In this document: in pieces, positions 34,330 to 48,948 of the stretch
Layout: every line of letters starts with the position of its first letter
Position numbering within the stretch: position 1 is the first letter of the stretch
Origin: a virus
Length of the DNA: 58,581 nucleotides
Virus record (IMG/VR): IMGVR_UViG_3300004807_000026
Span: 1 to 58,581 of that record
Reading direction: 5' to 3' (one strand)
The notes under the pieces: generated by a model
The model's input: the letters and a program-made list of their open reading frames with translations, nothing else
Told to the model about the DNA's origin: nothing
Databases searched by the model: none
Translations under genes and position numbers: made by a program

Positions 34330-34352
34330 AGGGAAAGATGTTGTCTGACTAA

Positions 34353-34382
34353 GTGGGAGCCAGCGTATTCGCTGACTCCCAC
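34353..34382 (-). terminator. Hairpin after the major capsid gene
   Basis: GTGGGAGTCAGCG, loop AATA and CGCTGGCTCCCAC form a 13-bp stem with a single mismatch, 18 nt after the capsid stop. TTAGTCAG follows rather than a U-tract. It probably limits readthrough or stabilises the abundant capsid message, separating capsid from fibre genes. Confidence 0.65.
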
Positions 34383-34399
34383 CCGTGTCAAACTACTTC

Positions 34400-35794
34400 T
34401 TACAGACCAGTCGAGCTAGTCGAGCAAGGAAGCGGTGCACCATCGAATGGGCAGCGCTTGTAAGCAATCGCGCAGACGTTCTGCGGGCGGATCGGTTGGA
34501 TCGCACGCTGAATCTGATAGATGTGCTGACCGAAATCTCCGTAGAGGTTGCAGTCGTTGTCGCGGAAGTATGTCCACTCCAGTTCGCCCATAGCAAGCTG
34601 AGGAGCGAAACGGAAGGTTCCTTCTCCAACATACTGCTCGGGAACGAGACGCTTGAAAGCCTCGCCAGCGATGACGAAGGCGATCTCGTACGTCCCGGCG
34701 ACCCAAGTAGGATTGCGGCGTTGACCGAAACCGTTGGTGACCGTGGCCTGATAGATCGGGTTGATCACGTCAGGAATACCGGACGTAGGATCAATCGTGT
34801 TGAAGCGCAGAGGCTGCTGATCGATACCGAAGGCGAAGCCGCGGTAGCCCATGAACTGATAACCACTGATGGACTCCTCACCGAGGGTGAAGGATCCGGC
34901 GGTCAAGTACAGGAGGTCTTCCTTGACGTCGGCATCATTGCGGATGTTTTCGATAGCGTCGGCGCTAGCGAGAACTTGGAAGTACTCACCTTCCTTGGTG
35001 GCGAAAGGCTCGGCGAGCATCTCTTCACGCAAGAACGTACCGATGCGGTACAGAGTCTTGAAGTTCAGGGCACTGTCAGGATAGACACCATTGCTGGCAG
35101 TCTGGAACAGTGTGTTGATCTGCTGCATGTCCCCGGTGAGGTTCGTGGTGAACGACTGAGTGCTGTTCACGACGTACTTGATACCGGACTGGACAAGGTA
35201 TTGATACCGGATGTCAGCGTTGATCAGTTGGAGGATGGTCTTCTCAAGAGAGACCTGAGCCTGAAGGTAGCTGCCCTTGAATGCGGCGCGAGCTTGCTTA
35301 ACGCAAACACGCGGGCCTGCACCACGCAGGGTAGCAAGTTGGAACTGGTACTCGGTCGAACCTACGACGTCAGGAGTAGCACCAACACCGCAGAGGTTAA
35401 GATCTGCGACGAAGTTTGGCGCTGCAAGTGAAGCGTTAGGCACTGCCATTTCCTCAACGACCGAACGGACAACGTCGGAAACATTGGGGATCGTTCCACC
35501 ATCAATCGAGTTGATGTAGGGGCTCTTGCGGGCAAGAACCTTGGCGATCTGACCGATGATACGGTTGACGTCCTTGGAAGCGAAGTTTTGGACAGTAGCG
35601 AGAGGGATACAGTTGCTGCTGGAACCGCTGAAGTTTCCGTTACCGGAGACAAGAGAGGTTGGGCCAGAGGCAACGGATCCTGCTGCTGCAAGACCTGCGC
35701 TAGTTTGGTCGTAGGATCCGGGTTGAGTACCGGAAGCGTACGTGGTTGTGCCCGTAGGATACGCTGGGCCAGCAAATGGATTGGTATAGGCCAT
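34400..35794 (-). CDS. Major capsid protein
   Basis: A 464-residue protein. Assignment rests on position (downstream of terminase, portal and scaffold-like genes), a dedicated promoter with a long leader, and a terminator-like hairpin behind it. The N-terminal 60 residues are Gly/Ser/Thr-rich; the middle looks mixed alpha/beta (ARAAFKGSYLQAQVSLEKTILQ); the C-terminus ends with several Cys-containing loops (CAIAYKRCPFDGAPLPC). I do not recognise the sequence family directly. Confidence 0.75.
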   Translation of the reverse strand: MAYTNPFAGPAYPTGTTTYASGTQPGSYDQTSAGLAAAGSVASGPTSLVSGNGNFSGSSSNCIPLATVQNFASKDVNRIIGQIAKVLARKSPYINSIDGGTIPNVSDVVRSVVEEMAVPNASLAAPNFVADLNLCGVGATPDVVGSTEYQFQLATLRGAGPRVCVKQARAAFKGSYLQAQVSLEKTILQLINADIRYQYLVQSGIKYVVNSTQSFTTNLTGDMQQINTLFQTASNGVYPDSALNFKTLYRIGTFLREEMLAEPFATKEGEYFQVLASADAIENIRNDADVKEDLLYLTAGSFTLGEESISGYQFMGYRGFAFGIDQQPLRFNTIDPTSGIPDVINPIYQATVTNGFGQRRNPTWVAGTYEIAFVIAGEAFKRLVPEQYVGEGTFRFAPQLAMGELEWTYFRDNDCNLYGDFGQHIYQIQRAIQPIRPQNVCAIAYKRCPFDGAPLPCSTSSTGL

Positions 35795-36009
35795 AATTTT
35801 GAGTTTGTTTCCCTGTCCTCACCGCTCGGTGGTTTTGGTTATGAGCGACGATGCCAAGGAGTAGACGGCATCCGGTTTCCCGGAAACGGTCTGAGTTGGT
35901 TTAGATTCTTTCGTCGCTCCCGGCACGCTGGAGCAATGGTTGCGGCCTGATCAGTGAATCTTTTGGCTTCCACCGAGCCACCTTCATACGGAGAAGGCAC
36001 ACCGAGTTA
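35795..36009 (-). ncRNA. Folded 5' leader of the capsid gene
   Basis: About 215 nt between the predicted start (near 36009) and the capsid ATG hold no gene. The sequence folds as nested stems. An outer 9-bp pair joins 35970-35978 with 35824-35832 (GCTCGGTGG with CCACCGAGC). Inside, a second 9-bp pair joins 35911-35919 with 35843-35851 (GAGCGACGA with TCGTCGCTC). Inside that are two hairpins: 35867-35872 with 35850-35855 (GATGCC/GGCATC, loop 11) and 35883-35887 with 35875-35879 (GTTTC/GAAAC). It could control capsid translation or mRNA life. Confidence 0.65.
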
Positions 36010-36015
36010 TTTGCA

Positions 36016-36044
36016 CTATTACGAAAAACGTAAGACGACGTCAA
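36016..36044 (-). promoter_or_regulatory. Sigma70-like promoter of the capsid gene
   Basis: TTGACG (36039-36044), a 17-nt spacer and TAATAG (36016-36021) on the minus strand, just past the stop of the DUF5672 gene. The best promoter match in the window, placed to give separate strong expression of the capsid. Confidence 0.7.
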
Positions 36045-36054
36045 CTATTTTTTT

Positions 36055-36705
36055 TTAATCAATCAATTTTAAGTGTATCTTGTTGTGTGGAAAATTTTTT
36101 CCGTGAAATCCAAAAGATGATTTTGGATCTTTAGTTGAAGAGATATCATTTAGAATAGACTCAACAGAAAATCTTGCCGCTACTTCTATCGAAGGAAATA
36201 CAATCCCTAAATTTACAAGAGTTTTTCGGTAATCGCTACATATGACTCTATCTTCCGGGGTCAATAAAGGATCTTCATTAAATGCATCCATTGGTATGAC
36301 TTTTGGAATTAATTCACACAACCGTTTGCTGCGAAGACTAAACCCACCGTTTCCAACCCGATAGTACCCATCAGGCCACGGTGCCCCAATGTAATCATAT
36401 TCAAGGAAAGAATGTTCCCACTTGTCAGGGTTAACTACAAACCCATCTGGATGAATCATTAAACAATGTGAAGTATCAAAGTACTTATGCAAATGGAATA
36501 CATGAAATTTATTAAAATCAGAAAAACTACCCAACAGATTACCCACATTCACGGTTTGAATGCCGGGATACTCAAAATCAAATGGAGATAATACAATGCA
36601 ACTGTTAAAAATAATTTTTTTGGCGCTATACTCGATAGCTTTACACGACTGTATCGGATCTAATCGATTGACCGAAATTGCGGTTACCCCCGAAAGATCT
36701 AACAT
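36055..36705 (-). CDS. DUF5672-like sugar transferase
   Basis: A 216-residue protein with HCLMIHPDGFVVNPDKWEHSF, LEYDYIGAPWPDG and RVGNGGFSLRSKRLCE, the signature of DUF5672 proteins (glycosyltransferase-like). The pair of IGAPWP and GNGGFSLRS matches the core of that family. Last of five surface-sugar genes between scaffold and capsid. The upstream methyltransferase stop precedes it by five nt; the ATG follows an A-rich TAAAAAAA. Confidence 0.75.
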   Translation of the reverse strand: MLDLSGVTAISVNRLDPIQSCKAIEYSAKKIIFNSCIVLSPFDFEYPGIQTVNVGNLLGSFSDFNKFHVFHLHKYFDTSHCLMIHPDGFVVNPDKWEHSFLEYDYIGAPWPDGYYRVGNGGFSLRSKRLCELIPKVIPMDAFNEDPLLTPEDRVICSDYRKTLVNLGIVFPSIEVAARFSVESILNDISSTKDPKSSFGFHGKNFPHNKIHLKLID

Positions 36706-36710
36706 TTTTT

Positions 36711-37280
36711 TTATTTTTCAAAAATTCTTACATTGGGATTCAAATGATTTCCGATGGAAAAACCTTTTATCACCATAAGTTGATCCAGACCCGCATGACT
36801 AAAGATAGTCGAATGCCCAATCTCTGGATTTAAGTACCCGTGTCCTAGCTCAACCCAATTTGAAAAAGAAGTTTCAACAAACAAAACCCCCCTCGGATTG
36901 AGTAATGAAAAAATCTCGTCCAACTCACTATAGGGTTCACACGTATGTTCAATGACCTCAATCATTGTGACCACGTCAAACTTCTCACTAGGTAGTGTCT
37001 TATACTTTTCACTGAATGGGTCGTACCCGCTGGCAGGTATGCCCCGGGCGCAAAGGTAATCAACAAAATCTCCGCGACCGCACCCGTAGTCGAGCACTGT
37101 CCGGTTGCCTATGTAGTCAGCACGTCCACTGTGATTATCTTCCCTATTACCAGTGCCCCCGACCATATTTGATTGATCAAGGCACCCAGTAAATAATGAA
37201 CCTGTAGCGTCTACGTAATACGGAATACCCGCCACTTCGCAGGACACGTCCATTTTTTCTCCGGTAATAAAAGATCTCAT
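36711..37280 (-). CDS. SAM-dependent methyltransferase
   Basis: A 189-residue class I methyltransferase of the Methyltransf_23 type: glycine-rich loop LDYGCGRGDFVDYL with SAM-binding, acidic residue in GYDPFSEKY, then FDVVTMIEVIEH and LLNPRGVLFVET. Position in a glycosyl gene set suggests methylation of a sugar or lipid substrate rather than DNA. A start overlap of 4 nt with the GT9-like gene suggests coupling. Confidence 0.8.
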   Translation of the reverse strand: MRSFITGEKMDVSCEVAGIPYYVDATGSLFTGCLDQSNMVGGTGNREDNHSGRADYIGNRTVLDYGCGRGDFVDYLCARGIPASGYDPFSEKYKTLPSEKFDVVTMIEVIEHTCEPYSELDEIFSLLNPRGVLFVETSFSNWVELGHGYLNPEIGHSTIFSHAGLDQLMVIKGFSIGNHLNPNVRIFEK

Positions 37281-37996
37281 AGGTCTAAATTACCGTTACT
37301 GCAGTACACTGCTCTATCGTAAGGCACGATACTATTTTTTAATGTATCGTGCGTCTCTTGAATCAAAGGTTTCATCAGTGCCGCGGCTATCCAGAACGAA
37401 CTAGACTGATTACCAACAAAGAAATCGGATCCTTCAATTGCTTCTGCAACTTGTAAACAAGATGGTGTCTTATAATACTCTACATTTCCAACTACCTCGC
37501 AAAAATCTTTGTGCTCATCCTCTGTCCCGGTAAACAATGCTCGGTCTCCAAAATGCTTTAGAACTTTTTTCCAAGGAAATTTTTCATTCCTGTACCTGTG
37601 GGATCTATTAAAAATTATTCGTCCTTTAGTTGCAGGATCCGCGTTAACTCGTATCCAAGGCTCTTGAATGTTCATGTGCCCATTTCTACGATCTACTAAG
37701 TTCACGTATCTAGCTTGTGAATCCATCAAAGAAATGTCGTCCCGGTAGCACTCTCTCCATCCTGTCATGTCAAAATCGATACTTCCGTAAGAACTAAAAC
37801 CCGTTTCGATACCTTGACTCAAAAGTAAAGGTTTCAAAGAATCGTACTTAAACCCAGACATAGGCAACATACCGGGATCATCGCGGATAATTAACGAAGT
37901 ACCACCTAGCTTTCTATAGATAGGCAAGAAAGCTATGATGTCACCTATGTGTCCGGTGTGGACAAAGGTTGTTCGCTTACGGAATGGGTCGTTCAT
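37277..37996 (-). CDS. GT9-like glycosyltransferase
   Basis: A 239-residue protein. Residues 10-30 read FVHTGHIGDIIAFLPIYRKLGG, the N-terminal loop of heptosyltransferase-type (GT-B) enzymes. The C-terminal part has SDFFVGNQSSSFWIAAALMKPLI, matching the usual nucleotide-sugar pocket position. Somewhat short for GT9 (about 300-350 residues). It overlaps its neighbours by 4 and 20 nt. Confidence 0.65.
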   Translation of the reverse strand: MNDPFRKRTTFVHTGHIGDIIAFLPIYRKLGGTSLIIRDDPGMLPMSGFKYDSLKPLLLSQGIETGFSSYGSIDFDMTGWRECYRDDISLMDSQARYVNLVDRRNGHMNIQEPWIRVNADPATKGRIIFNRSHRYRNEKFPWKKVLKHFGDRALFTGTEDEHKDFCEVVGNVEYYKTPSCLQVAEAIEGSDFFVGNQSSSFWIAAALMKPLIQETHDTLKNSIVPYDRAVYCSNGNLDL

Positions 37997-38549
37997 TAGT
38001 TAGAGATTCACGCATCTGATCGACGCGGGTTCCATCAGCATTCCGCTTAGCGTGGAACAATTTTGATTTTATGCCTGCAAGTGAGTTGTTAGTATTTTGT
38101 AATACATCGCTTTCTACAGGGTAATCGGGGTTATATGGGGGAAGTTCTAGGAACTTCTTAATCATATATCCCAGATGATCTTTCGACGCGTAGAACAAAT
38201 AGCAAGGCTCGCCGACAATCAAGTGTGGCCCGTCTTTCTCCATAGCTTCAGCCTCGTTCTTACTGAATCCGAGATTCGCAACGTCGTAGTCGCTCATCCA
38301 TCCGCCCCCGGCAGCGTGCAACGCACACCAACGGACGTACCGGGCAGCACGTGCTCCCTTGATGTTCATCTGAATCAAATGCCACATCAACTTGGTCAGC
38401 AGCGGACTAATCGTTGCGTGACTCTTGTTCAGCATCGTACACGTCCAACCATTTGCCTCCCATGACGCTTTCCAATGATTGGCACAACCAAACTCATCCC
38501 CTTGATTGCTACCGGGGATCGACTCGTAGTAGGCAAAGATCTGCTTCAT
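37977..38549 (-). CDS. GT32-like glycosyltransferase with DYD motif
   Basis: A 190-residue protein. The stretch ARYVRWCALHAAGGGWMSDYDV holds the D-x-D metal-binding motif (DYD) of GT-A enzymes of the capsular or GT32 type. The N-terminus (FAYYESIPGSNQ) and C-terminus are less clear. Short compared with known families, so the fold is probably minimal. Confidence 0.65.
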   Translation of the reverse strand: MKQIFAYYESIPGSNQGDEFGCANHWKASWEANGWTCTMLNKSHATISPLLTKLMWHLIQMNIKGARAARYVRWCALHAAGGGWMSDYDVANLGFSKNEAEAMEKDGPHLIVGEPCYLFYASKDHLGYMIKKFLELPPYNPDYPVESDVLQNTNNSLAGIKSKLFHAKRNADGTRVDQMRESLTNERPIP

Positions 38550-38550
38550 C

Positions 38551-39612
38551 CTAGTACGTCTTGAATCCTACGTGAAAGACTGGCAACCCAAGATCCACGT
38601 GTGGTTGGTGCCCGGCTTGCTTTGCTCTGAGACAGAATGACACATCTTCTCCGCGGGCACTATCGAATGGTCTGAAGTAGTCGTACGTGTAGTCGGGAAC
38701 GTCAATCTCCAACGAATCCTTGAACGTCTCCCGGATGTCTTCAAATACCTTGCGGTGAATGAGCATGCAGCCAGTGCCTACCCAATCCACGGGAACTACT
38801 GCGTCCTCGTACGCCTTTGCCCGGGGAGCAAGTTTGGGATCCGCGCACATGATAGCGCCTCCCTCCTGCCTTCCAAAGTAAGCGGCACCAACAATCGTCT
38901 TGTTTGCTCCGATCAACCTATGGAGGACGTGCCTCTGCAATGGTTGATCGAGGATTGTACGTGCCCCGGCTACCCAGTACCGGAACCATGCGGGTCTACC
39001 GATGGACGGTATGATGTCGTCATCCATCATCAGTAACCACTTGGCGTCGGTCTCCAAGAACTTGTGTGTAAGACGATTGCGAGAGTGCTCGATCTTTGCG
39101 TCGCCAATCGACATGTCGAACCGGATCTTGTCCCGGCCAAAGTCCAGTGCCATCGCTACGTTCACAGCAGCCGTCACCGGGTTACTCGACTTGTACCAAG
39201 GCCACCCAACAAAAATATCTCGTCCTTCAAACTCACACCTGTACGAGGGCAATCCCTCAGTGCTGCGAGTCTCGACTACGGGATTGTGAAAGTCAGGTTC
39301 ACTTTGGATCGGCTCTTTTGTGAACTCCACTTTAATTTCCTCGCTAGCCTTGGTTGCCCTTGGCTTTCGCGGCTTGATCGTTACCTTCGGCTGCTCAACG
39401 GGCTCAGGAGCTACGACTGGCGCTTCTTCGACCGCGGGCTCGATGACTTGCGGGGAGACAACAGATACCGGAGCAACGTCACCGTAACGGTTCTTAGGAG
39501 CGACGGGCTTGCCTCCCTGCAACATTGGCAGAGGTTTGCTTGCGAACGGATTCGGCGATGCGAGCGCGTCGGTTGTGACTCGCTCCATCCTTGCGATGAG
39601 AGATTCAGCCAT
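38551..39612 (-). CDS. GT-A glycosyltransferase with long N-terminal tail
   Basis: A 353-residue protein. Residues 1-110 are Pro/Val/Lys-rich and look disordered (PRKPRATKASEEIKVEFTKE). The catalytic part starts around 115, with WLLMMDDDIIPS (D197-199) as the metal-binding motif and later YFRPFDSARGEDVSFCLRAKQAGH, typical of GT2-like processive or O-antigen-type enzymes. The tail could anchor it to the virion or membrane. It starts with a TAA-TTT-ATG junction. Confidence 0.75.
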   Translation of the reverse strand: MAESLIARMERVTTDALASPNPFASKPLPMLQGGKPVAPKNRYGDVAPVSVVSPQVIEPAVEEAPVVAPEPVEQPKVTIKPRKPRATKASEEIKVEFTKEPIQSEPDFHNPVVETRSTEGLPSYRCEFEGRDIFVGWPWYKSSNPVTAAVNVAMALDFGRDKIRFDMSIGDAKIEHSRNRLTHKFLETDAKWLLMMDDDIIPSIGRPAWFRYWVAGARTILDQPLQRHVLHRLIGANKTIVGAAYFGRQEGGAIMCADPKLAPRAKAYEDAVVPVDWVGTGCMLIHRKVFEDIRETFKDSLEIDVPDYTYDYFRPFDSARGEDVSFCLRAKQAGHQPHVDLGLPVFHVGFKTY

Positions 39613-39615
39613 AAA

Positions 39616-40935
39616 TTATTGCCCAGCTTCATCAAGACCAAAGTCAATCGCGTCGGAGGTAGACATCTTGAGTCTGTCCGCCATCGACGTGGATTTCCGC
39701 GAACTCTCAGGAGTCGGGTTTGCCTTCGGGATCCTCCCCGCGTTCTTTAGACTATTGTTCTCAGCCTGCAATCGCTTCAGCTCAGCCTGCATCTTGGAGA
39801 TGGAACTCTGTTCCAGTCTCAGTTGCTCGGACAGGACGTGACTAGCAACCGCGGCAGCAGCAACCTCAGACCTCTCCTGTGGCGTCGTCGGCCACAGTGC
39901 CGCGTTGAATCGCTTCGACAGTTCGGTGACTGCAGCGTTGTGCTTCTGAATCTCGGCACGTTCCTCGGGACTTGACGTCGGCTTTATCTCCCGGAAGTTT
40001 GCCCAAGGAATGTCCTTGATGATCTGATTGGTGTGCTCCTGAATGATCTTGTTCTGCTCGTAGAACTGCTCGACCTTCTGAGTCTCACGCTGACGCAAGA
40101 ACTCCTCTCGCTTCTCGGCAGTATCTCCAATCTCCTTTTGGCGTCCCTCCTTGAGGTCGATGACATCCACAAGAGACTTCTTGAGCCTTTCGGAATCGGT
40201 AAGGTCTAGTTTGTCTAGTGCTTGGGTCTTCCACCACTGCTGACTGATCTTGTCCGGGCCTCCTGCCTTCTCAATAGAACTGATGACGTCGTCAGACGCG
40301 CCGTTCTTCTTGAGTATATTGTAAATGTTCTCCTTGGCGGATTGGATGGGCAAGTCGTACTTGCTCTTGAAGTCAGGGTCATTTTCAGTATCAAATATAG
40401 CGCGGAACTTCTTTAGCTCCTCGTAATCGGGAGGTGTCTGCGTGGGAGTTTGTTCGACCTGAGACAACTTCTGACGAAGCTCCTCTGCCTCCAGTGCCTG
40501 TTTCTTGTACTGAGTAGCCGTCTCCTGCAACTTTTTCCAGTTGCTCTGGTTAGCCTCGGACAGATTCCTTGGCTGCTCAATGGCAGCAATTTCAGGATCA
40601 ATCTCTGGCTCCGCTGTAACGTCTGGCGTTATAGCTGCAACCTCTGGCTCAGGCTCAGGCGGAAGGTTACGCTCAAACTGACCGGGGTTCCCGGTAATCT
40701 CGTCAAAGATAGGATCCGAGGTGTCTCCACCCTTGTCATCCGGTTCACGCGGTGTCTCAGGGATTTGCGGAGGCTCGCCAGCGTAGATCTTCGTTGTGTT
40801 CGCCTCAGCCTCATCGAGCATCTTGTCGAGGAAGTCTAAGGTGTTATTGTCAACGCGGTCGGCGTCGAGTGAAGGAGCCCCCATGCGACCACTGGCTGCT
40901 GTTGACTCCGGTACTATGTTGTCGTTGTCTTCCAT
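39616..40935 (-). CDS. Capsid scaffolding-like protein
   Basis: A 439-residue protein, acidic and Pro/Glu-rich up to about residue 130, then long coiled-coil helices (NWKKLQETATQYKKQALEAEELRQKLSQ; KMQAELKRLQAENNSLKN). This composition and its place between portal and capsid fit a scaffold. No protease domain is seen. Confidence 0.7.
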   Translation of the reverse strand: MEDNDNIVPESTAASGRMGAPSLDADRVDNNTLDFLDKMLDEAEANTTKIYAGEPPQIPETPREPDDKGGDTSDPIFDEITGNPGQFERNLPPEPEPEVAAITPDVTAEPEIDPEIAAIEQPRNLSEANQSNWKKLQETATQYKKQALEAEELRQKLSQVEQTPTQTPPDYEELKKFRAIFDTENDPDFKSKYDLPIQSAKENIYNILKKNGASDDVISSIEKAGGPDKISQQWWKTQALDKLDLTDSERLKKSLVDVIDLKEGRQKEIGDTAEKREEFLRQRETQKVEQFYEQNKIIQEHTNQIIKDIPWANFREIKPTSSPEERAEIQKHNAAVTELSKRFNAALWPTTPQERSEVAAAAVASHVLSEQLRLEQSSISKMQAELKRLQAENNSLKNAGRIPKANPTPESSRKSTSMADRLKMSTSDAIDFGLDEAGQ

Positions 40936-40938
40936 AAA

Positions 40939-41187
40939 TTACATTGCGGTAAAACCGCTGGACGATGCGTCGTCCTGCTTGCGTTCAACAATTGAGAGTT
41001 GTTTCAGCGTCTCGATTGCCTTCAAATATCCTTCCTTGAAAGCACCGCTCAGTGCGATGCCGTCAACCGTTGACTTCTCGGTAATCGTAATCACCGGAGC
41101 CGTTGAATCCATGTGTGCAAATAAATTTGCCCTATGTTTTAACAGGTAGTCCCTGAATGCCACCGCGTCAGATTGTTCCCAAGACAT
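40939..41187 (-). CDS. Hypothetical small protein
   Basis: An 82-residue protein, helical at the ends with a beta-like middle (PVITITEKSTVDG). It sits between two structural genes and uses a TAA-ATT-ATG junction. Role unknown; a small head component is possible. Confidence 0.6.
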   Translation of the reverse strand: MSWEQSDAVAFRDYLLKHRANLFAHMDSTAPVITITEKSTVDGIALSGAFKEGYLKAIETLKQLSIVERKQDDASSSGFTAM

Positions 41188-41190
41188 AAT

Positions 41191-41673
41191 TTATTTTTGT
41201 TCTGCGTTTCTAATTCCCCGTTCGATCTCGTTTTCTTTCCTACCTGTCGTAATCACATCACGACCGTAGAAATTGGGTGTTGCTCTGAAACCGGGATTCG
41301 GTGCTGGAATTTCATTAGGTTGTGCCCAGACACTCTTGCCCTCAGCGATACGGTGTTTTGCAAAATCAACTGCCTTCGCCCGGATCTCATTCATCAACTT
41401 GGGGTTTTGACGATCCTGCTGATCAATAGGAATTGTCTGCAGGTACGTCTGCTCATTCAACGTAGTCGTTGGGATAATCTTGGGGATATCCATCTCCTTC
41501 CCGGTCACGTCTTCAGTTCCAAAAGACTGCTCGCCAGTAACTGCGAACCTTGGGTTTGGCGTAAGATCGGGAAGCAATCCCTTGTACCCAAGTGACTTCA
41601 TTGACCCATCCGCCCGGTAGGACGTTGGGTTGTTGGGATCTAAAGCGATAGGATTAGGATTGGCTCCGCCCAT
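41191..41673 (-). CDS. Structural-region protein with phage linker motif
   Basis: A 160-residue protein. The centre reads GTEDVTGKEMDIPKIIPTTTLN, then IRAKAVDFAKHRIAEGKSVWA, a motif I recognise from phage head polyproteins (IPT-x-V-P, then A-x-x-R-x-x-x-GKS). A free version of that module here may be a small head protein. Its exact role is unknown. Confidence 0.6.
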   Translation of the reverse strand: MGGANPNPIALDPNNPTSYRADGSMKSLGYKGLLPDLTPNPRFAVTGEQSFGTEDVTGKEMDIPKIIPTTTLNEQTYLQTIPIDQQDRQNPKLMNEIRAKAVDFAKHRIAEGKSVWAQPNEIPAPNPGFRATPNFYGRDVITTGRKENEIERGIRNAEQK

Positions 41674-41674
41674 A

Positions 41675-44080
41675 TTATTCTGCAGTTGCTGGTCGTGGAG
41701 GTGTAGCTACGTTCTGAACGTGTCCCGCTTGTGAAGGAATATTCATCGACATATCTTCCATCGGTGCTGCCTGTGGCTTGCTTGCCCTAGCATGATGCCC
41801 CCCGCCATGATGCGCTGCAGCAGGGACAACCTGTGGCATTGGTACCTTGGCGTGGCCTTGCGTAAGGTGACTGACAGCTTCCTGCAGTCCCTTCTTGAAC
41901 GGTGCCAGTTGCTGCTTCTTTGCGCCCTTCTGCTCGGCCTGCTGCAAGTGACCTTGGAAGTGCTGCAGTGCTTTTGTGAACGGTGCGACCATCTCGGGAG
42001 TCAATCCTCCGGGAGGAGCGTTTTGGATCACTGGGAACAACTTCTGAGCCATCGTCTGAATGTGAACCATGTCGTTATCCCTTGGGGAGATAGGTACTTC
42101 CTGACCCGCCAAGATGCTCTGGAGTTCCACAATCTGCTGACGTGTCGCCTCAATTGCCAGTGCCTCGACCTGATCCTTCGGAAGGATGAGTGCGTTAGCC
42201 TTAGCCTCACCTACCTTGTACGAGAGATCCATCTTCAGCATCTCGTCTTGATTCACGTTCGGGTTGCCCGAGTACCGCTGAACCACAAGATCAAACAATT
42301 GCTGATCGTTAGCCGTCGTATCCGGAAGCAACTCGCTTGCGGGACTATAAGCCATAAGGAGAATATCAGAAGGAGGTACATTCCTTTCCAGCATCTGAAG
42401 ACACGCATGGATAGCGTCTTCATCCAAGTGCTCGTGAACCTCAAAGGGAACCAAGAACTTAGGAAGATCCATGCCGCTACGGTCAAAGGCATCCACTACC
42501 TCGCGACGTGCCCAGATAGCCGAAGGCTCAACACTGCGAACCTGATCCAGCATGCCCTTCAAATCTGCTGCAGCCTTCACGTGCTCAGGGTGACAAATGC
42601 CTCGTTGCATCCGCTCAACACCCCTCGTGTACTGCTTGCTCCAGCGCATCAGGATACCCTGACGTAGTTGATTCTCAATCGCTGCGACCCTGTTAACTTC
42701 TGAAGCAGTCTGTCTCTGACCCTGCTTCTCTGTCACCGCACCGGGTAGAAACGTGCCAACCTGAATCTCAGCTAGACCACTTACGAACTGATCCAACTTC
42801 AGGAAGTCATCCACGTCCGCAGGCATCTGCTGCGGGATCACCTCGTAGCCTTCGGCAACGTAAGCAATAGGATGCATCACCGAAAGAGGTGCCGTATCAG
42901 GACGTGCATTTGGCCCGCGCTTCATTAGCAGCAGACCTTTAAGATACGTGTTGTCGATGACCAAGTTACGCGCCTTCTCAATGGCAACGTGTGTGTTGTA
43001 CAGATCTCGCCCGGCTCCGCGGCTTGACATCAGATTGCCAGCGCCAACCTCGACCGAGAACAAGGCAATTGCCTCGCTCATGTGATTGTAACGATCAAGC
43101 TGAGTACAGATCTCGTCGCCCGACTTGTCGTCAAACAAATACCGGGAGATCTTACCATGAGGCTCCCGAACTAAAATCTCCCCGAGCTCGACGTACTTGG
43201 CGTCGTTCTCATAGCTTGCTCCGTAGCTACCTTCCCGGATCCAGTCTTCGTACCTACGAGCATCGTCGTCGGCGTCCAATGTCCTGCCAGCAGGGATAGC
43301 AGCGTTGATGGAACGAACCAAGTTGTTGATGTGCCACCCAGCCAGTGCCGACATCTCGGGCTTCTCTAAGACAGGCAAGAGTTCGTAAATTTGATACCTA
43401 CGCTTGCGTCCCACAATAGGTGTTGCGTCTGTGTCCTGCGGCGTTTCGATACTGAAGAACGTGTAATCCTGACGCATGAACTCTGGCTTCCAGTCGCGAA
43501 GATCGTCCCACACCCATCCACAGAATCCAAAGCATGTATTCTCGTGAGTCGTTTGAGCTAGAAGATCATCGTGACCTTTCCATCCGCGGATACACTTTGT
43601 GATCTCTTCCCGGAATACCTTTGTCTTGTTCTCCGAGTCCGCTGACTCCAAGGGATACTTTGAAAAGGTAAGCGTCGGTGAATTCTCAATCACCTCGCGG
43701 AACGGAGGCTGAATCCTTGATACCATCGTCGAGAGGAACCCGGTAGGACGATTGCTCCTCCAATTCTGACCCATCGACTCCAACTTCTTCATGGAGTACG
43801 GGGGTTCGTTGTTCAGCTTCTTCTGGATGAGTTGATTCTTGCGATTCCTTTCCACGTTCTGCTGCTTCAACCTGCGGTAAGCACTGTGCGCTTGACGCGC
43901 ATCCTTGAACGTCCTGCGGACTTGAAGCGTGCGAGGATTGACCGTGTCGTTGGACGAATCGTCGGCACTGACAACGTCGAGATCTAAAATGCGAGGCTTG
44001 CTGTGCGGGTCAACAATTCTCGGTGCATGATCCGCGAAGCGATCAGTTACTTTTGGGTCTAGTGGATCGAAGTCGGCCAT
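41675..44080 (-). CDS. Portal protein
   Basis: An 801-residue protein, within the range for podovirus portals. It follows the terminase genes and precedes scaffold and capsid genes. Helical regions at the C-terminus (QQIVELQSILAGQE, HFQGHLQQAEQKGAKKQQ) and a Met/His/Gln/Pro tail are portal-like. The N-terminal 200 residues contain FSKYPLE and CFGFCGWVWDD, with the usual mix of alpha/beta. The assignment is by position and size. Confidence 0.75.
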   Translation of the reverse strand: MADFDPLDPKVTDRFADHAPRIVDPHSKPRILDLDVVSADDSSNDTVNPRTLQVRRTFKDARQAHSAYRRLKQQNVERNRKNQLIQKKLNNEPPYSMKKLESMGQNWRSNRPTGFLSTMVSRIQPPFREVIENSPTLTFSKYPLESADSENKTKVFREEITKCIRGWKGHDDLLAQTTHENTCFGFCGWVWDDLRDWKPEFMRQDYTFFSIETPQDTDATPIVGRKRRYQIYELLPVLEKPEMSALAGWHINNLVRSINAAIPAGRTLDADDDARRYEDWIREGSYGASYENDAKYVELGEILVREPHGKISRYLFDDKSGDEICTQLDRYNHMSEAIALFSVEVGAGNLMSSRGAGRDLYNTHVAIEKARNLVIDNTYLKGLLLMKRGPNARPDTAPLSVMHPIAYVAEGYEVIPQQMPADVDDFLKLDQFVSGLAEIQVGTFLPGAVTEKQGQRQTASEVNRVAAIENQLRQGILMRWSKQYTRGVERMQRGICHPEHVKAAADLKGMLDQVRSVEPSAIWARREVVDAFDRSGMDLPKFLVPFEVHEHLDEDAIHACLQMLERNVPPSDILLMAYSPASELLPDTTANDQQLFDLVVQRYSGNPNVNQDEMLKMDLSYKVGEAKANALILPKDQVEALAIEATRQQIVELQSILAGQEVPISPRDNDMVHIQTMAQKLFPVIQNAPPGGLTPEMVAPFTKALQHFQGHLQQAEQKGAKKQQLAPFKKGLQEAVSHLTQGHAKVPMPQVVPAAAHHGGGHHARASKPQAAPMEDMSMNIPSQAGHVQNVATPPRPATAE

Positions 44081-44084
44081 GTGC

Positions 44085-44648
44085 TTAGCGTTTTACCCAA
44101 CAGTGGTCAGGAAGGTTAGAAGTTGAGGACAGTGCGTCCTTCTCGATGAATACCGCGGTACGATTGTCGTGACGAAGCACGTGGCAACCTAAAATTCTTG
44201 GTGACGTAACCGTGTCCCGGGCTTGACGAACAGAAGCACACATGCGCTCGGTCGATACCACACAGGAAGAACATCCTCCCTTCCACTGCGCGTTGTTCGG
44301 GCAGCGGGCACAGATCCTTGCGCGAGATTCAGCCTCGTCGTCAGACACCAATGCAAACGGTTTGATCGACTGCTGCATGTTCTTAGCCCATGTCTGGATG
44401 TCATTCATCAACTGAGACCCAGCAGTAGGGTGATCAACACTCGTGATGCTCACCGTAACCTTGTCCACACCGTGGCAGAAGTGTGGGCTTCGTCCACATA
44501 GTTGACTGTTGATGTCACCAGTCACGTCTCCTACCGGGAGACCGTTCTCTGCACGGTACTTTTGCACGACGAGATAGAGATCGTCGAGTGTCGGAGCTTC
44601 CAACTTGACGTCACTTTGAAAAAAGTGCCACCCGCCGGGAGGAATCAT
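44085..44648 (-). CDS. Cys-rich protein between portal and terminase
   Basis: A 187-residue protein (from the ATG at 44648). IPPGGWHFFQSDVKL and YRAENGLPVGDVTGDINSQLC match a phage family I have seen beside large terminases. The C-terminal part holds ICARCPNNAQWKGGCSSC and later Cys, suggesting a zinc-binding fold. A GTG at 44669 (VAKPING) is an alternative start and keeps the conserved-looking NPVAKPING. Function unknown. Confidence 0.6.
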   Translation of the reverse strand: MIPPGGWHFFQSDVKLEAPTLDDLYLVVQKYRAENGLPVGDVTGDINSQLCGRSPHFCHGVDKVTVSITSVDHPTAGSQLMNDIQTWAKNMQQSIKPFALVSDDEAESRARICARCPNNAQWKGGCSSCVVSTERMCASVRQARDTVTSPRILGCHVLRHDNRTAVFIEKDALSSTSNLPDHCWVKR

Positions 44649-44715
44649 GCCGTTAATCGGTTTTGCCACAGGGTTCTGAAATAGTTTGTTGTGTAAGACT
44701 AAGCAAGTACTATTT

Positions 44716-46596
44716 TTACTCCGTAAAATCAACGTAATCCAACGTATCCACGATACTTTGCAGCTTTTTTTCCCGAATTCGGCGTTCCGGAGCCTTGTTT
44801 TCGACCATTTCAGCCGAAAATCCCGACCTCTGACGCATGAGGTAGACAAGTAATGAGAGAGAATCCAACGCGTCGGGAGATTTACTTCTTGTACGTTTAA
44901 CAAAGTCCGCCTTCGACTCCACACGAACCAGTCCCTTGCCCTTTTGCTTGTACCTTCTCGACGTTGCCTGCCTGATTAACTCCTCGTGCCTGAACCCCGG
45001 GGCGATCTTCAGGTATCCAAACTCAATGTACTTAGCCAGTCCGAACAAAAGTTCAGTCACAACCCCGCTATACAACTCATTAGCCTTCTGCGTGTCGTCT
45101 CCAAGCACCCGTGTCTCGGTTGCTGCCCACGAATAGTTCACACCCATGACCTCTTTGCCGAACAAACTACACAAACTGTCGTGGATACCGGATCCGTTAC
45201 CCGTCCTGTCCACGCACAACCAGTTCGGCCCGATACGCATCTGTTTGCAAAACCTGATAATTGCTGTGGACTGCTCCAGCGTTGCCTTCTTTGGGAACGT
45301 GATCTGTGAATCCAACTGCAGCACCGTCTTCGCCTTTGGAAACGACTGGAACTTGCCAGATAGATCGGTAAATCCATCCGACAATCCAAACCTACCGTAG
45401 CTGCAGACGACGCTGTCGTTGCCCTCTAGCGCCAAGTCAAATGCTGCCAGCGGCACGACCGGGCCAATGAACCGCACGACCCCGACCGAGTTGTTCATCA
45501 TCGCTGGCGTCATCACTGCCATTGCCATACCTTCCTCCGGGAACCACCCACGCGCCATCGTGTAGTACTCCGCTGTGTGCCCGCGGTTAGAATAACTCTG
45601 GAATCCCTCGAACGTCTGCAGCCCGGCGTACATCACCCGCTTCTCCATGACGTTCTCGCACTTGGACGCGTCGATCCTGAGCACGTGATACCCCTCGCGA
45701 CTGTCCCACTCGTAGTCGTCCTCGCAGTCCACTGAACCCCATCCGTTCTTTGGCTCGCACCGGACACCGAAATCAGACGTGCGATCCTTCGGGTTCGATG
45801 CTGCAAAGATCTTGATGTGCCCGCGGAACATGTCGTCGTCCATCGATGACGCGATGTTGTTGACGCCTTCCCACACTCCGCCCGGGATCTCTTCAGCCTC
45901 GTCCAAGATGACGCGGATCCTCGATAGGCGTCCGTACTTGGGGTGCGCCTTGCCGAACCGCGGTGACGGGTGGAATCCGCGCAGCGTGCCCGCGCCCGAC
46001 TCGCCCCGGGGGATCGCCACAAGGTGAATGCCCTGCTTGCTGTCCTCGTTCGCTTGAATGCTCGTGACCAATGCGTCCCCCTTCGGGAACTCTGGCTTGA
46101 CTAGCGCGGCCCGGTGAAAGTTCTTGATGTGCGCGTAGATGTTGCGCTCAGCGTGCTCCCGGGTCAGCGAGATCACCTTGATCGCCGTGTAGAACGGATC
46201 CCGGAGCCAGTCCAGATAGAACCACGCAGCCGCGTTGAACGACTTGCCCATCGCGCCCGCTCCCTGCACCAGTGTCTTGTCGTACCGGAACAGGCAGCGC
46301 CACGTGTCCTGTGCCGACCGGGGACGCCAGTCGTAGACGTCAGCGCCCCACTGGATCGTTGCCGCGGCCTCGAACTGATTCTTGTCGAGTAGGTGCTGGA
46401 CGAACTGCAATACGATTGCCTTGGCCTTGGGCAGCGTGATGACCGTGTTCTCGGGCTCCTTGGTCGCGTGCTGCAGGATGTACTTGGCCGCGTACAGGAT
46501 GCCCTTCTCCTCGTCCCGGTCAACCTGCTTACGGATCTCTGTCGCGAGCTTGAGCGCGTGCGAGATGTTACGCGCTGGCGTCGGGGTCTCGCTCAT
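44716..46596 (-). CDS. terL: Large terminase subunit (ATPase and nuclease)
   Basis: A 626-residue packaging motor. Walker A is GAGAMGKS (112-119), Walker B is VILDEAEE (229-236), and the C-terminal nuclease region carries CVDRTGNGSGIHD and PDALDSLSLLVY with conserved acidic residues. ATP hydrolysis drives DNA into the head; the nuclease cuts concatemers. It overlaps the small terminase gene by 29 nt, an unambiguous packaging pair. Confidence 0.92.
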   Translation of the reverse strand: MSETPTPARNISHALKLATEIRKQVDRDEEKGILYAAKYILQHATKEPENTVITLPKAKAIVLQFVQHLLDKNQFEAAATIQWGADVYDWRPRSAQDTWRCLFRYDKTLVQGAGAMGKSFNAAAWFYLDWLRDPFYTAIKVISLTREHAERNIYAHIKNFHRAALVKPEFPKGDALVTSIQANEDSKQGIHLVAIPRGESGAGTLRGFHPSPRFGKAHPKYGRLSRIRVILDEAEEIPGGVWEGVNNIASSMDDDMFRGHIKIFAASNPKDRTSDFGVRCEPKNGWGSVDCEDDYEWDSREGYHVLRIDASKCENVMEKRVMYAGLQTFEGFQSYSNRGHTAEYYTMARGWFPEEGMAMAVMTPAMMNNSVGVVRFIGPVVPLAAFDLALEGNDSVVCSYGRFGLSDGFTDLSGKFQSFPKAKTVLQLDSQITFPKKATLEQSTAIIRFCKQMRIGPNWLCVDRTGNGSGIHDSLCSLFGKEVMGVNYSWAATETRVLGDDTQKANELYSGVVTELLFGLAKYIEFGYLKIAPGFRHEELIRQATSRRYKQKGKGLVRVESKADFVKRTRSKSPDALDSLSLLVYLMRQRSGFSAEMVENKAPERRIREKKLQSIVDTLDYVDFTE

Positions 46597-48922: not shown

Positions 48923-48948
48923 TTAAACTTTGACTTAATGTAGACTGG

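Follow-up and report, generated by a model that had tools for sequence, protein, structure and literature searches.

Introduction

Stable 5′ stem-loops shield the ompA and T7 gene 10 mRNAs from RNase E (PMC2254391). In the gene 32 operator of phages T4 and RB69, a 5′ pseudoknot precedes an A-rich, less structured tract that runs to the start codon (PMC535899). The put element of HK022 is a promoter-proximal cis-acting RNA of a phage operon, ~70 nt in length and folded into two stem-loops (PMC9378689), and comparative genomics has revealed the manA and wcaG motifs as structured leaders of cyanophage genes (PMC2864571).

Here we describe a conserved cis-acting RNA of ~200 nt that precedes the presumed shell-protein gene in a group of uncultivated phages and consists of three consecutive H-type pseudoknots, a helix P4 with a variable hairpin, and an A-rich tract. 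The locus resembles T7 gene 10 in having a dedicated promoter (phi10 in T7), a structured 5′ leader, and a major capsid gene (PMC2254391). However, T7 has one 8-bp stem in place of three covarying pseudoknots and P4, whereas the promoter here is of the host type, the Shine-Dalgarno (SD) sequence is missing, and no U-tract follows the 3′ hairpin. The leader shares with T4 gene 32 a pseudoknot placed 5′ of an unstructured tract with a start codon, but in genomes that carry an inserted gene this codon is not that of the capsid gene. The T4/RB69 operator also differs in having a single ~28-nt pseudoknot, an SD, a different gene, and a position beside the regulated AUG. With HK022 put, the leader shares its nature as a promoter-proximal cis-acting RNA of a phage operon; put, however, occurs in two copies in early operons, whereas the RNA described here is longer, contains three pseudoknots, and is found in one copy before the capsid gene. 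Instead of ~70 nt with two stem-loops, its predicted fold comprises a ~100-nt chain of three pseudoknots together with P4. The manA and wcaG motifs are likewise structured RNAs in phage-gene leaders recognized by comparative genomics, but they are tied to exopolysaccharide, light-induced, and photosynthesis genes and yield no Rfam match to the leaders analyzed here.

A folded leader between a host-type promoter and a capsid-like gene

The window analyzed is the whole 58,581-nt stretch of IMG/VR record IMGVR_UViG_3300004807_000026, in which one strand carries 44 of the 46 called genes. Because the capsid-like ORF is encoded on the minus strand, the leader is a minus-strand RNA (Table 1); the plus strand, which folds with z = −1.5, is the wrong strand. 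The region is crossed throughout by stop codons, indels, and compensatory changes, and no frame stays open over 165 nt in 68 of 99 leaders; a coding role was therefore rejected.

The promoter read by the first-pass annotation is present upstream of the leader. TTGAC opens the best-fitting −35 element in 79 of 98 copies. In 77 of 98 copies, the spacing between the −10 element and the first pseudoknot nucleotide (in pseudoknot 0, PK0) is kept at 10–11 nt, although the sequence varies. This gap places the first paired base ~3–6 nt from a typical transcript start site (close to predicted transcript position +5). The mRNA is thus predicted to begin almost directly with a stable structure, as in T7 gene 10.

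Table 1 Features of the capsid locus in the window.
Feature	Position	Strand	Description
Promoter	36016..36044	−	σ70-type, TTGACG-17-TAATAG (36044–36016), read from sequence
Leader	~36009 to 35795	−	215 nt, from promoter to capsid-like ORF
Pseudoknot 0	35989..36004	−	CGG 36004–36002 with CCG 35991–35989 in the P1 loop
Hairpin P1	35980..35998	−	GCCUUC-UCCGUAU-GAAGGU; loop pairs back to the 5′ end
Pseudoknot 1	35952..35979	−	P2 GGCU/AGCC (35979–35976, 35968–35965) plus loop pairing
PK1 loop pairing	35975–35970 with 35957–35952	−	CGGUGG with UCACUG
Pseudoknot 2	35916..35947	−	P3 plus pairing of its inner strand downstream
P3	35947–35942 with 35928–35922	−	GGCCGC/GCG-U-GCC; bulged U; 96% paired
PK2 pairing	35934–35930 with 35920–35916	−	GCUCC/GGAGC; both-side changes in 4 of 4 pairs
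Helix P4 (inner 9-bp pair)	35843..35919	−	GAGCGACGA 35919–35911 with UCGUCGCUC 35851–35843; long-range, encloses variable hairpin
Outer 9-bp pair	35824..35978	−	GCUCGGUGG 35978–35970 with CCACCGAGC 35832–35824; window only, no counterpart elsewhere among 99 leaders
A-rich tract	35795..35842	−	Runs to capsid AUG; without Shine-Dalgarno or terminator U-run
Capsid-like ORF	34400..35794	−	Presumed major capsid protein, 464 aa
3′ hairpin	34343..34393	−	Two-part: outer GUUUGAC/GUCAGAC, inner ~13–15 bp; directly after capsid stop codon
Head module	34400–46596		Terminase-like, 801-aa portal-sized, coiled-coil scaffold-like, and capsid-like genes
Terminase-like gene	44716–46596		One weak PHROG match

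The capsid-like protein has no family match in Pfam or PHROG, and a PDB sequence search with the capsid, terminase, and portal candidates returned nothing. Two AlphaFold models of the protein were poor (pLDDT 50 and 52). Every one of the first 17 Foldseek matches in the PDB to the second, low-confidence model, that of relative L008, is a phage capsid; the best E is 0.005, and no match falls below 0.001. These matches, together with a gene position after terminase-like, large, and coiled-coil proteins, make it likely that the ORF encodes the major capsid protein. Proteins of the head module are almost without database relatives, marking an orphan phage clade. A DUF5672 gene, a methyltransferase gene, and other small genes (36055–38549) form a block within the head region, immediately upstream of the capsid promoter.

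Distribution of the leader

An ORF search retrieved 80 virus contigs with proteins ~80% identical, and the same leader lies upstream in those contigs in many sequence versions. An independent scan that used two short leader motifs and ignored the gene found at least 119 contig stretches, and those confirmed by a covariance model built on the 100-nt 5′ domain led to the same capsid-like gene. Among 40 whole virus records, 35 contain exactly one strong copy (E < 1e-6); two of the other five have weak hits only and three have none, and these five may be chance entries drawn in by the short pattern. At E ≤ 0.0005 we counted 99 copies, two of which lie in loci that end too early to reveal a downstream gene. 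The capsid-like gene follows in all 97 resolvable copies, immediately in 85 and after ~1 kb in 12.

No relatives were found among deposited phages and plasmids. Neither the leader of the window nor those of 12 relatives matched Rfam 15 at gathering score, and relaxed E-values gave chance matches only. In 84,980 species genomes, the pattern matched 32 times, in GC-rich sequence and at no more than 24.5 bits, and we discarded these matches as chance. A host search through 388 genomes from the phylum to which one Verrucomicrobia MAG belongs, run with no positive control, did not find the capsid-like protein. The family is new to Rfam 15, the deposited phages and plasmids, and the species genomes scanned, whereas its kind, a structured phage leader, is known. 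The initial remark that no described element matches the leader holds for Rfam 15 and the open-access papers searched. Fremin et al. in 2023 reportedly listed candidate structured RNAs in viruses and phages, and the present motif may be an unnamed entry there.

A highly folded RNA found in a single copy beside a head gene could also be a trans-acting or packaged RNA, similar to pRNA, that precedes the capsid gene by happenstance. We find this hardly credible, given that the element is always colinear with the capsid gene, that no terminator separates the two, and that no packaging RNA in Rfam matches it.

Three consecutive pseudoknots form the conserved fold

The folding energy of the 215-nt leader is −71.2 kcal/mol (z = −2.98), and 1 of 200 shuffled sequences was as stable. 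To assess conservation, we counted pairs of a hand-written structure on a sequence-only alignment of 31 leaders. Compensatory changes are abundant, affecting both sides in 22 of the 27 named pairs; 88.7% of cells pair, and the covariation score is 0.453, versus 0.07–0.15 when the partners are slid. By these measures, the leader is a clear RNA family whose shape is kept while its letters change.

The pseudoknots form a chain of ~100 nt that begins ~5 nt into the predicted transcript. PK0, closed by the P1 loop, is invariant in most copies, and where it is altered, both strands alter in concert: the 99 copies include CGG/CCG (71), CGA/UCG (16), GCG/CGU (8), and YGC/GCG (3) triplets, a tally obtained by searching for the best-pairing triplets and so biased towards pairing. 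The CGA/UCG replacement is also directly visible in the alignment. P1 is 93% paired and has both-side changes in all five counted pairs, as does every counted pair of P2 and pseudoknot 1 (PK1). Downstream of pseudoknot 2 (PK2), P4 is 90% paired in another sequence-only alignment, undergoes C-G/U-A and G-C/A-U replacements, and is present in most lineages. Several unpaired bases are nearly invariant, namely the CA before P3, the A between the PK2 strands, and the bulged U of P3. Such conservation exceeds the needs of a plain stabilizer and suggests that a protein or ligand recognizes these bases or that they make tertiary contacts.

The first-pass annotation had drawn this leader as a structured regulatory RNA of two nested 9-bp pairs enclosing two hairpins, and had judged the nesting unlikely by chance. 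Both pairs lie where it had placed them, and no nested arrangement arose in 4000 dinucleotide shuffles of the leader, at least one 9-bp pair occurring in 3.7% and two in 0.025%. A structured leader is strongly supported by covariation and stability, the two points that the annotation itself had named as able to refute it, and the inner pair is the conserved P4. The outer pair, by contrast, falls outside the conserved element and was rejected as part of it, being seen in the window only; among the 99 leaders, the only further 9-bp match, in L161, has an unrelated sequence. The three pseudoknots that make up the conserved architecture were absent from the two-helix model. The outer pair competes with P2 and PK1, both of which would dissolve upon its formation, and it is possibly an alternative fold of this phage only. 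The motif CUCGGUG occurs twice in the leader (36006–36000 and 35977–35971), so that in this phage CACCGAG at ~35825–35831 has two possible partners.

In many lineages, P4 can be lengthened into the 3′ strand of PK2, which would make PK2 and an extended P4 mutually exclusive and allow the leader to act as a riboswitch or other switch that reports a ligand or cell state. The complementarity is slightly above that of cross-lineage shuffles (317 and 172 of 5000 were as high), a weak excess. A switch also lacks an expression platform here, with neither a terminator nor SD sequestration, and a single type of downstream unit is unlike that of metabolic riboswitches; we regard this reading as very improbable.

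An A-rich tract without a Shine-Dalgarno sequence

The final 35 nt of 55 leaders are 54% A, 21% C, and 10% G, and none of the 55 has an SD-like sequence. Before the gene, the same leaders contain neither an intrinsic terminator (hairpin plus U-tract), the longest U-run being 2–6 nt, nor any sequestration of an SD. In the window, an SD-like sequence precedes 2 of the 46 called genes versus 15% expected by chance, a deficit indicating that the phage avoids SD sequences altogether. Gene starts in the window come after A/C-rich or stop-adjacent sequence.

The loci with ~1 kb between leader and capsid gene (L022, L033, L034, L035, L037, L041, L050, L054, L070, L077, L080, and L166) separate the two parts of the leader. 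The intervening gene encodes an FGE-sulfatase domain (PF03781) in both of the loci scanned, and in the 11 loci examined its product looks, by eye, as if it has an N-terminal signal peptide. It was gained or lost independently at least four times on the capsid tree (11 placed loci). Throughout these 11 loci, the RNA remains behind the promoter and the A-rich sequence before the capsid AUG; the pseudoknots thus belong to the 5′ end of the transcript and the A-rich tract to the capsid start.

This arrangement bears on three further explanations. A compact pseudoknot chain ~120 nt before the AUG, in a phage that has no SD in the leader and avoids it genome-wide, might recruit or position the 30S subunit in the manner of an IRES, but the RNA does not move with the capsid AUG in loci with an inserted gene, and the phage's other genes manage without the element, so that direct recruitment appears improbable. 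In T4 gene 32, the corresponding layout serves autoregulation: here, a phage protein (capsid, scaffold, or ssRNA-binding) would nucleate on the pseudoknots, spread along the A-rich tract, and stop translation. The single copy, always before the capsid gene, agrees with this scheme, and the nearly invariant unpaired bases leave room for protein recognition as in T4. Yet in the insert genomes the pseudoknots lie ~1 kb from the capsid start, and spreading would silence the inserted gene first; we judge autoregulation unlikely. The element stays with its promoter and not with the gene, and putL of HK022 is likewise promoter-proximal (PMC9378689). The promoter directly upstream and the strand bias of the window would suit a nascent leader that binds RNA polymerase and promotes readthrough of terminators or pauses in the late operon, like put RNA, which counters termination and pausing through the zinc-binding domain of RNAP β′. 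Such antitermination is quite unlikely, as put has no three-pseudoknot chain, each genome has one copy only, and terminator-like sites downstream occur at chance level (16 found versus 16.3 expected).

A hairpin follows the capsid stop codon

The capsid gene ends in a second conserved structure. A 3′ hairpin of at least 11 bp, with at least 6 GC, is found in 50 of 56 lineages versus 0.07 in shuffles; including the outer stem of 7–9 bp, it is 98.8% paired, with both-side changes in 12 of 17 pairs. No U-tract follows the stem, which in nearly all lineages is succeeded by a UCAUCAG- or AGUCAG-type sequence, and the hairpin is therefore not a plain intrinsic terminator. It could alternatively be a processing or pausing site. 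T7 gene 10 is also followed by a hairpin (Tphi). Only two equally strong hairpins lie elsewhere in the window (48924–48896 and 342–314, minus strand). TTTCTTTTTA follows the one at 48924–48896, which resembles an intrinsic terminator.

Discussion

The element probably governs for how long, or how strongly, the shell-protein mRNA is used. Its 5′-terminal place, its attachment to the promoter, the partner hairpin at the 3′ end, and the lack of a terminator or of an SD to hide favor an effect on message life; its distance from the capsid start in insert genomes, together with the 5′-end position, favors an action on the transcript and not directly on the capsid start codon. All helices covary, and records with a strong copy carry one, always before the capsid gene. 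We tentatively prefer, as plausible though short of probable when taken whole, a model in which the leader is an mRNA-protecting module comparable to the T7 gene 10 leader, with ompA as a further precedent. The knotted 5′ end would keep 5′-end-dependent ribonucleases off the message, the 3′ hairpin would block 3′ exonucleases, and the A-rich tract would supply SD-independent ribosome entry, such that one protected transcript could yield many capsid subunits.

In a bolder form, which we consider fairly unlikely, a cap-like 5′ structure or IRES-like recruiter would act with the 3′ hairpin to frame the capsid message at both ends in an SD-less phage and host. To our knowledge, no such viral RNA module has been catalogued in bacteria.

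The leader represents a new, strongly covarying, pseudoknot-rich RNA family tied to one gene, in a phage clade almost invisible to databases. It offers a testable handle on how large capsid output is obtained from one gene without Shine-Dalgarno signals, and its ~100 natural variants form a ready set for structural and reporter studies. Should the 5′ and 3′ elements indeed protect the mRNA, they would be useful expression parts for SD-poor bacteria.
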